Assembly (NCBI GenBank): GCA_002796135.1 | Contig: PCWB01000042.1 | Location: forward strand, 1-41,295 | DNA from: Candidatus Omnitrophica bacterium CG11_big_fil_rev_8_21_14_0_20_41_12 | Lineage (GTDB): Bacteria > Omnitrophota > Gorgyraeia > Gygaellales > Profunditerraquicolaceae | Direction of reading: 5' to 3' | DNA length: 41,295 bases | Shown: positions 3,696 through 5,867 of the stretch, in pieces | How the letters are laid out: every line of letters begins with the position of its first letter | Position numbering within the stretch: the first letter of the stretch is position 1 | Translations under genes and position numbers: made by a program | The notes under the pieces: model-generated | Told to the model about the DNA's origin: nothing | The model's input: the letters and a program-made list of their open reading frames with translations, nothing else | Databases searched by the model: none

Positions 3696-3766
3696 AGCGG
3701 GAGAGGGGAATCGAACCCCCATATATAGCTTGGAAGGCTATTGTTCTACCACTGAACTACTCCCGC
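3696..3766 (-). tRNA. tRNA-Gly (anticodon UCC)
   Basis: Reverse complement GCGGGAG...ATAGC CTTCCAA GCTAT...TTCGATT...CTCCCGC; canonical cloverleaf. Confidence 0.95.
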
Positions 3767-3863: not shown

Positions 3864-4145
3864 TGGGCAGGAGAGGATTCGAACCTCTGAAGCACAGGTG
3901 CAGCAGATTTCAAGGGCCTCCGAGTTACCTCGAAGCTTGGACTATCTCATCACCATAGTTTTCACTTTAGGTGGTAGGCGCTTAGTCTCTGCACCTTCCC
4001 GCAAAAATCATTTAGCGGGCTTGGCTCAGGATTCCCCTAAGGGCTACTTAGGGCTCCCCTGAATTCACCTACTTTTCCATCTCGCCTTTCGACAAGACGC
4101 TGCGTTTACACAGTCTGCCCCCTTTGGCCACTTGGGTACCTGCCC
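3864..4145 (-). tRNA. tRNA-Tyr (anticodon GUA), interrupted by a group I intron; exons 4145..4110 and 3910..3864
   Basis: Joined exons give a class II tRNA: GGGCAGG acceptor / CCTGCCC-A, anticodon arm GCAGA CTGTAAA TCTGC, long variable arm GCAC-CT-GTGC, T-loop TTCGAAT. Confidence 0.94.
3911..4109 (-). ncRNA. Group I self-splicing intron (IC3-like, ~199 nt, no internal ORF) in the tRNA-Tyr anticodon
   Basis: Minus strand contains P-like AATTCAGGGGAGCCC, Q-like AATCCTGAGCCAAGCC, R-like GGTGCAGAGACTA, S-like GATGAGATAGTCC; 5' exon ends in U, which can form U.G with an internal guide (CUGU/GCAG); intron ends in G; P9-like CTTCGAG-GTAA-CTCGGAG hairpin. Confidence 0.95.
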
Positions 4146-4200: not shown

Positions 4201-4272
4201 AGCTGGCGAAAGGAATCGAACCTTCAACCCATGGTTTACAAAACCATTGCGCTACCATTGCGCCACGCCAGC
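4201..4272 (-). tRNA. tRNA-Thr (anticodon UGU)
   Basis: Reverse complement GCTGGCG...ATGGT TTTGTAA ACCAT...TTCGATT...CGCCAGC; canonical cloverleaf. Confidence 0.95.
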
Positions 4273-4276
4273 AGAT

Positions 4277-4693
4277 TTACTTCTCAAGTAAGTCAAATCT
4301 TGATTCATATTTGGCTGCTTCAGTTACAAACTTGATTTGTTTATTCTTAGCTGGCTTTAACCGTAAATTACATGTACTTTTATTCCTAATCAGGCTGAAA
4401 GGAACAAAATATACCTTATGCTGCTCGGAAGAATATACAGCAATAATATCTATATTTTTCGGTGAGTAATGTATGATACTGTGATTATTGCAGCTTCTTG
4501 CTCTCACCTCTACTATGCCATCTTTCGGCGTTGCATATTTAACTTGAACACGCTTAAATACTCCATTTTTCTCTGTAACAAGATCGTATCGGTTATCTTC
4601 TCCCCACGGGATAAGAACATTAAAACCATTTTGTTTAAGTAGATAAGTAACAAATGCTTCAGCAATATCACCTTTTTGTTTTGTAATAGCCAT
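4277..4693 (-). CDS. Free-standing PD-(D/E)XK endonuclease, group I intron-associated homing endonuclease type (I-Ssp6803I-like)
   Basis: KGDIAEAFVTYLLKQNGFNVLIPWGEDNRYDLVTEKNGVFKRVQVKYATP shows E...RYDLV...QVK spacing typical of PD-(D/E)XK nucleases with Q-x-K; located next to the intron-bearing tRNA cluster. Confidence 0.78.
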   Translation of the reverse strand: MAITKQKGDIAEAFVTYLLKQNGFNVLIPWGEDNRYDLVTEKNGVFKRVQVKYATPKDGIVEVRARSCNNHSIIHYSPKNIDIIAVYSSEQHKVYFVPFSLIRNKSTCNLRLKPAKNKQIKFVTEAAKYESRFDLLEK

Positions 4694-5548
4694 TTAGGTA
4701 CTCTTTTTTATTGCCGCAGGAATTTCATCAATAATATCCGAAGCAATTAATCCCATCTGTGTTTTATCGCCTGCTGCAATATCACCGGCTAAGCCATGAA
4801 TATATGTCGCATATTTTGCCGCAGGAAAAATATCCAACCCCTGAGCTAGGAATGCTCCGGCAATACCGCTTAAGACATCGCCGCTTCCTGCGGTTGCCAT
4901 CCCCGGATTACCGGTTTTATTTATATAACACTGACTATTGCCGTCAGTTACAACAGTATGATGTCCTTTAAGTATAATCGTACTATTATAATATTTTGCG
5001 TACTTTTTAGCAACCAATTTCCTGTTTTTCTTTATAAGATTAAGATCAACTTTAAAAAGCTTAGACATCTCCATTTGATGCGGAGTCAGAATAAGTCGGC
5101 CTTTATGGTTTCTAAGTATCTCTAAGTGATTACTGAGCGCGTTTAAAGCATCGGCGTCGATCACAGCAGGTAAATTAATCTTTTTAATAATTTTCCTTAC
5201 CAATGCACTCGTCGTTTTATCTGTGCCCAGGCCCGGGCCGATTATTAAAACATCAACCTTCTTAAGAAAAACGCCGATTCTGCTAAAAGCTCTGAGGCTT
5301 AATGACCCTTCTTTTGTTTCCGGTAAGGGCAAGCTCATTACCTCCTTAGGCTTATTTTTGATTACCGCCAGATTAATACTTTTAGGGATACCCAAAGTTA
5401 TCAACCCTGCTCCTGCACGTAAGGCAGCTTCAGCACAAAGTAAAGCGGCTCCGGAAAATCTGCTTGAGCCGGCTAATATTAAGATATGCCCGTAATCCCC
5501 TTTATGAGAATTAGCTTTTCTTCGTAATAATTGCGTTGGCAACTGCAT
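4694..5548 (-). CDS. nnrD: ADP/ATP-dependent (S)-NAD(P)H-hydrate dehydratase
   Basis: KGDYGHILILAGSSRFSGAALL, IGPGLGTDK, PAVIDADALNAL, LTPHQMEMSKL, GNPGMATAGSGDVLSGI. Track ORF extends to 5602; start placed at MQLPTQLLRRKANSHKGDYGH. Confidence 0.94.
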   Translation of the reverse strand: MQLPTQLLRRKANSHKGDYGHILILAGSSRFSGAALLCAEAALRAGAGLITLGIPKSINLAVIKNKPKEVMSLPLPETKEGSLSLRAFSRIGVFLKKVDVLIIGPGLGTDKTTSALVRKIIKKINLPAVIDADALNALSNHLEILRNHKGRLILTPHQMEMSKLFKVDLNLIKKNRKLVAKKYAKYYNSTIILKGHHTVVTDGNSQCYINKTGNPGMATAGSGDVLSGIAGAFLAQGLDIFPAAKYATYIHGLAGDIAAGDKTQMGLIASDIIDEIPAAIKKST

Positions 5549-5867
5549 AGGTTTTAACATGTGAGATTGAAATATGCACGCAGATATTTTTTCCTTTACC
5601 ATTCAGAAATAAACAGATCGGTTTGCCTTCGGCATCATTATGTATTTGAAGATCCTGCCAAGAAATATTCTTATCCCCGGCTGCCTTAAACACTGCCTCT
5701 TTTGCGGCAAATCTTCCGGCTAAGTGCTGGTAAAAAGAGGTCTTGGTTTTAGCATTTTTTATTTCGTTTTTTGTAAAAACTCTCTGCAGAAAATCTTCGC
5801 CCCATTTTTCATGCGCCTGCTTGATCCTGCGCACCTCGGTGATATCCATCCCTGTGCCGATGATCAT
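5511..5867 (-). CDS. acpS: Holo-[acyl-carrier-protein] synthase
   Basis: MIIGTGMDITEVRRI, HLAGRFAAKEAVFKA, HISISHVKTYAVA; start refined from the 5930 ORF start. Confidence 0.94.
   Translation of the reverse strand: MIIGTGMDITEVRRIKQAHEKWGEDFLQRVFTKNEIKNAKTKTSFYQHLAGRFAAKEAVFKAAGDKNISWQDLQIHNDAEGKPICLFLNGKGKNICVHISISHVKTYAVANAIITKKS

Follow-up and report, generated by a model that had tools for sequence, protein, structure and literature searches.

A PD-(D/E)XK homing-type endonuclease gene linked to a variant tRNA-Thr: a candidate two-gene mobile cassette in Omnitrophota

A free-standing gene for a PD-(D/E)XK endonuclease lies directly 5′ of the tRNA-Thr(UGU) gene in the window (the whole stretch of Omnitrophota DNA that was analysed, 41,295 nucleotides), and across related genomes its presence goes together with a variant allele of that tRNA. 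We propose, at a probability of roughly 0.6, that the homing endonuclease and the variant tRNA-Thr move as a two-gene cassette that would attack the ordinary tRNA-Thr locus of recipients. The proposal is built on the protein family and fold of the endonuclease, its fixed insertion point, its patchy distribution, its decay remnants and its linkage to the variant tRNA-Thr. The features of the locus, and lists of related loci, are collected in Table 1.

Table 1. Features of the tRNA locus in the window and lists of related loci
Feature	Position or loci	Strand	Remarks
tRNA-Gly(UCC), end of the nnrD-Thr-Tyr-Gly block	3696..3766	-	follows host lineage
tRNA-Tyr(GUA), intron-interrupted	3864..4145	-	likely right homology arm; not the favoured target
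Group I intron in the tRNA-Tyr anticodon, between CTGT and AAA	3911..4109	-	199 nt, ORF-less; Rfam RF00028, 94.9 bits
tRNA-Thr(UGU), type 3 allele	4201..4272	-	proposed second half of mobile cassette
Junction of ORF stop and tRNA-Thr, fixed insertion point	4273..4276	-	4 bp; 0-8 bp across ORF-bearing loci
PD-(D/E)XK endonuclease gene (PDDEXK_5, I-Ssp6803I type)	4277..4693	-	138 aa, free-standing
nnrD (NAD(P)H-hydrate dehydratase, Carb_kinase), upstream host gene	4694..5602	-	likely left homology arm
Intron-encoded PDDEXK_5 loci, first list	L008, L011-L016, L018, L024, L025, L027, L028		
Intron-encoded PDDEXK_5 loci, second list	L007, L009, L010, L017, L019-L023, L026		
HTH-'MLYWAEG' loci between tRNA-Thr and tRNA-Tyr	L092, L096, L100, L113, L122, L131, L132, L139, L148		
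Further HTH-'MLYWAEG' loci	L181-L197		
Weaker HTH-'MLYWAEG' relatives	L198-L202, L205, L206, L208, L209; viral contigs L213-L217		

The ATG of the endonuclease ORF (4691-4693) directly adjoins the nnrD stop codon (4694-4696), suggesting that its translation is coupled to that of nnrD. Its own stop lies 4 bp from tRNA-Thr(tgt) and 167 bp from the intron in tRNA-Tyr, a geometry that the initial annotation had described correctly. The sole Pfam match of the 138-aa product is PDDEXK_5 (PF11645; E = 1.8e-29, 103 bits against a cut-off of 26.1), with no GIY-YIG domain, and the protein also matches phrog_5018 (7e-22). The closest solved structure is that of I-Ssp6803I (PDB 2OST; 4.4e-7 for the single sequence, 7.4e-10 for the profile). 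An AlphaFold model built from a 12-sequence alignment (pLDDT 81) has the four I-Ssp6803I chains as its top four Foldseek matches in the PDB (TM 0.67-0.72; best chain E = 5e-8, TM 0.72). The E..RYDLV..QVKYA motif picked out from the sequence is real: the putative catalytic residues E12, D37, Q50 and K52 do not vary across the 12-sequence alignment, and we take them, partly from the alignment to 2OST, to be the counterparts of the I-Ssp6803I active site. The dN/dS of the ORF relative to its relatives is 0.05-0.13, a rough estimate because dS is near saturation, indicating that the protein is maintained. The identification as a free-standing PD-(D/E)XK homing-endonuclease-type gene of the I-Ssp6803I family is thus borne out by the PF11645 and 2OST matches, and the fold comparison agrees with it.

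I-Ssp6803I is the endonuclease of the group I intron in the Synechocystis tRNA-fMet gene (PDB 2OST; PF11645), and enzymes of its type are tetramers with a long, tRNA-derived cut site. The window ORF sits between nnrD and tRNA-Thr and not inside a group I intron; it is a member of the PDDEXK_5 protein family, yet not an intron-encoded endonuclease. More distant relatives (~31-38% identity) are encoded within group I introns, in tRNA-fMet and in a second tRNA downstream of tRNA-Pro. PDDEXK_5 joins intron-encoded and free-standing tRNA endonucleases in one family, in whose protein tree every clade fits its tRNA context. The tRNA-fMet introns of Omnitrophota encode one PDDEXK_5 clade, with the ORF starting at the 5′ end of the intron, and the other intron-encoded clade is found in the second tRNA, which may be tRNA-Arg and mostly follows tRNA-Pro. 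In a more distant subclade (L037-L039) the gene lies on the 3′ side of tRNA-Thr, and no clear exchange of tRNA-Thr is seen there. A partial literature search found no work that deals with group I introns or homing endonucleases in the tRNA genes of Omnitrophota.

Close relatives of the ORF (50-84% identity) come almost exclusively from Omnitrophota, together with one WOR-1 bacterium. In this main clade, 0-8 bp separate the end of each complete ORF from the tRNA-Thr(tgt) that follows it, and most of the ORFs in Omnitrophota begin at the nnrD stop; the WOR-1 ORF also abuts tRNA-Thr(tgt), with a different upstream gene and without a nearby tRNA-Tyr. The nnrD-tRNA-Thr-tRNA-Tyr-tRNA-Gly block is conserved throughout the family, indicating that the ORF was inserted into it at a fixed point. 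The corresponding empty site is seen in many ORF-less relatives, where a few bp separate nnrD from tRNA-Thr. The genomes compared are mostly metagenome-assembled drafts; the main-clade ORF is present in 13 of the 384 genomes of the class, and 13 loci of the family carry the ORF or a remnant of it. ORF presence changes about 15 times on the nnrD tree, which is weakly resolved (an independent-pairs test on this tree has only 2 pairs on supported branches). Decay is visible at three loci (L006, L099 and L111), where a deletion has removed the middle of the ORF and left both of its ends. This combination of fixed insertion site, empty-site relatives and patchy distribution is that of a free-standing homing endonuclease.

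The window ORF shares 84% identity with the ORF of a genome from another genus (G424), and the path between the two is 0.89 for the nnrD proteins and 0.2 for the ORF. The case for transfer is made by such distance arguments; gene-tree proof was set aside, the ORF DNA tree being unresolved (AU p = 0.49). We also rejected a phage origin of the close clade: viral contigs hold no close copies, and phage records match at <60% only.

The protein might instead serve the host, as a domesticated or repair nuclease (Hjc-like) or another PD-(D/E)XK protein that stands beside tRNA-Thr by chance. Strong purifying selection and a weak resemblance to archaeal Hjc, in sequence and in structure, would agree with such a role, but the ORF is much closer to I-Ssp6803I than to Hjc, and group I introns of tRNA genes encode its nearest other relatives. 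Its patchy occurrence, the remnants left by decay and the fixed place of insertion are in keeping with a mobile gene, and we regard a host-serving nuclease as highly improbable.

The mobile gene is associated with variant alleles of its neighbour. The tRNA-Thr(UGU) gene is single-copy in the source genome (one tRNA-Thr(tgt) among 40 genome tRNA matches, with copy number checked locus by locus). Most ORF-less genomes carry a type 1 tRNA-Thr (GCCGGCG...GCTGTTTTGTAAACAGC...). Type 2 (GCTGGCG...CCTCACTTGTAATGAGG...) is the allele of the ORF-bearing genomes other than those with type 3, a 72-nt tRNA-Thr found in the window, where it differs from the allele of ORF-less congeners, and in G439. Within the family, all 13 loci with the ORF or a remnant have a tRNA-Thr other than type 1, compared with 10 of 65 other loci (p = 5e-9), and a within-genus permutation supports the association (p = 0.0009). 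At the level of the class, type 2 occurs in 11/13 ORF-bearing genomes and in 5/371 others (p = 6e-16). The two ORF-bearing genomes without it are that of the window, which has type 3, and G365, where the contig breaks off within the ORF; two of the five type 2 genomes without the ORF hold remnants of it. Type 2 is also found in eight family genomes without any trace of the ORF (by loss or independent origin), and type 3 in two ORF-less genomes.

The extent of the linked segment can be read from the genome G005. Its tRNA-Thr is 100% identical to that of three ORF-bearing genomes of other genera and 70-78% identical to that of its congeners, whereas its tRNA-Gly is 89-100% identical to that of congeners and 75-94% identical to that of ORF-bearing genomes of other genera; its nnrD shows no excess likeness to ORF-bearing genomes of other genera. 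This comparison indicates that the ORF and tRNA-Thr are inherited as one unit, which may also take in some of the short spacer between tRNA-Thr and tRNA-Tyr. The linkage of the tRNA-Thr allele upholds the earlier claim that flanking sequence travels with the endonuclease gene.

In a recipient with an ordinary nnrD/tRNA-Thr locus, the enzyme would cut within the tRNA-Thr gene or right at its 5′ edge. The break would then be repaired from the donor, with nnrD and tRNA-Tyr as homology arms, which would install the ORF and, in the same event, replace the resident tRNA-Thr by that of the donor. The variant tRNA-Thr probably lacks the cut site and would be immune; its anticodon is still UGU, so decoding should be unaffected. 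We infer cleavage, its exact target and this immunity from comparison of sequences. Immunity is suggested by the absence of type 1 from all ORF-bearing main-clade loci of the family, which is expected if this allele holds the target: type 1 is found in 0/13 family loci with the ORF or a remnant, whereas intact tRNA-Tyr is freely carried by ORF-bearing loci. Type 3 keeps the GTTTTGTAAAC anticodon core, which makes immunity of this allele doubtful if the anticodon arm is the target.

The same linkage could arise if the enzyme recognised the nnrD/tRNA-Thr junction, so that insertion itself destroyed the site and the variant tRNA-Thr were a mere product of co-conversion with no role in immunity. 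The ORF does sit exactly at this junction, and homing normally converts the flanking sequence as well (PMC3984707, PMC2988022). However, conservation is low on the nnrD 3′ side of the junction (60-76% at the DNA level), and the WOR-1 ORF lies 5′ of tRNA-Thr even with another upstream gene. Linkage alone also leaves unexplained why none of the 13 family loci has recombined back to type 1. Recognition of the junction is, in our judgement, unlikely.

The cassette of endonuclease and variant tRNA-Thr may, more tentatively, amount to a natural home-and-rescue gene drive, in which the single-copy tRNA-Thr(UGU) of the recipient would be destroyed and the cassette would supply an altered, cleavage-immune tRNA-Thr. 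The locus has the corresponding parts, namely a variant allele of the presumed target gene linked to the nuclease and a target gene that is single-copy and presumably essential.

The initial annotation had instead joined the ORF to the tRNA-Tyr intron as a split homing unit, in which the trans-encoded endonuclease cuts intronless tRNA-Tyr and thereby mobilizes the ORF-less intron. The two share one 830-bp segment, and collaborative homing of this kind is known from phages (PMC3984707). The boundaries of the intron were set from P1 CTGT/GCAG and the omega-G, and no second group I intron was found in the genome. Among family genomes of known intron state, the intron is present in 6/13 with the ORF or a remnant and in 15/60 without the ORF (p = 0.18); 15 of the 21 intron-bearing family genomes lack the ORF, and the introns nearest to that of the window come from ORF-less genomes. 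A within-genus permutation is weakly positive (p = 0.01, from four genomes), a value inflated by counting two genomes of unknown intron state as intronless.

The ORF is also conserved, with its catalytic residues intact, beside intronless tRNA-Tyr in many relatives, a finding that the initial annotation had itself named as one that would speak against the split unit. The uninterrupted tRNA-Tyr site CAGACTGTAAATCTG stands uncut in at least nine ORF-bearing loci, and G376 carries the identical 32-bp spliced site of the window, uncut beside its own ORF. An enzyme active on the spliced site would cut its own chromosome. In view of these intact sites and the lack of significant co-occurrence we reject pairing with the tRNA-Tyr intron as the main explanation of the ORF, and the split unit is very unlikely. 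Of the targets initially named, tRNA-Tyr is not supported, whereas tRNA-Thr, given only in brackets, is favoured by the data. There may be a weak link between ORF and intron; the intron is mostly a separate element in the same hotspot.

A further point against the split unit is that intron presence tracks another gene, which encodes a ~200-aa HTH protein between tRNA-Thr and tRNA-Tyr (9/9 versus 12/64, p = 3e-6); G062 retains a remnant of this gene. The protein, encoded 5′ of tRNA-Tyr, has an invariant MLYWAEG motif. In 9/9 aligned loci its ORF has no stop before the tRNA and runs into the tRNA-Tyr 5′ exon, and often into the intron. The intron is present at 9/9 of the family loci with this gene, and a second subclade (L191-L197) is largely intronless. 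We considered and rejected a LAGLIDADG identity for the HTH protein: there was no significant Pfam hit and no PDB profile match, and no LAGLIDADG structure was among the matches to the fold predicted for viral relatives. Weaker relatives abut or overlap other tRNA genes (Thr-ggt, Ser-tga and Lys-ctt), some of them within tRNA arrays of large viral contigs, and these proteins are possibly a family of tRNA-flanking mobile genes.

The Thr-Tyr spacer of L099 holds a GIY-YIG ORF (Pfam, 5.5e-16) and that of L124 a LAGLIDADG_3 ORF (7e-11), indicating that the locus is a hotspot for endonuclease-type genes. In L094 (G042), ~2 kb between nnrD and tRNA-Thr seemingly encode an AAA/OLD-like ATPase. ARAGORN in its default run misses the intron-bearing tRNA-Tyr of the window, so this gene may seem absent in annotations.

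If the cassette of endonuclease and variant tRNA-Thr operates as proposed, a homing endonuclease would need no intron to invade a single-copy, essential RNA gene, since it brings its own variant copy of that gene. Such a cassette would explain sudden tRNA allele replacement between lineages and would be a natural counterpart for engineered rescue drives.

The window ORF resembles I-Ssp6803I in Pfam family, fold, putative active-site residues and association with a tRNA gene. I-Ssp6803I is encoded in an intron in the tRNA-fMet anticodon loop, whereas the window ORF is free-standing, lies 5′ of tRNA-Thr and is linked to a variant copy of the tRNA. In being a free-standing gene beside tRNA genes it is comparable to SegB and the other Seg endonucleases of phage T4. 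In the account given in PMC2988022, SegB lies in a tRNA cluster and has a tRNA intergenic target, and replacement of flanking markers is described; Table 1 of that paper and the title of a reference in PMC3984707 have SegB promoting inheritance of the tRNA region. By analogy, the window element may work like the intronless homing of these T4 enzymes. SegB is a GIY-YIG protein borne by a phage; what is new here relative to SegB-like intronless homing is a PD-(D/E)XK enzyme on a bacterial chromosome, and one tied to an alternative tRNA allele. In phage collaborative (trans) homing pairs, a free-standing endonuclease and an ORF-less intron share a target; here the intron site is intact in many ORF-bearing genomes, so a shared target is unsupported. 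Synthetic Cleave-and-Rescue and home-and-rescue systems likewise pair a nuclease with an altered copy of its potential target gene. Cleave-and-Rescue is synthetic, whereas the window element is natural and its cleavage and resistance are putative.
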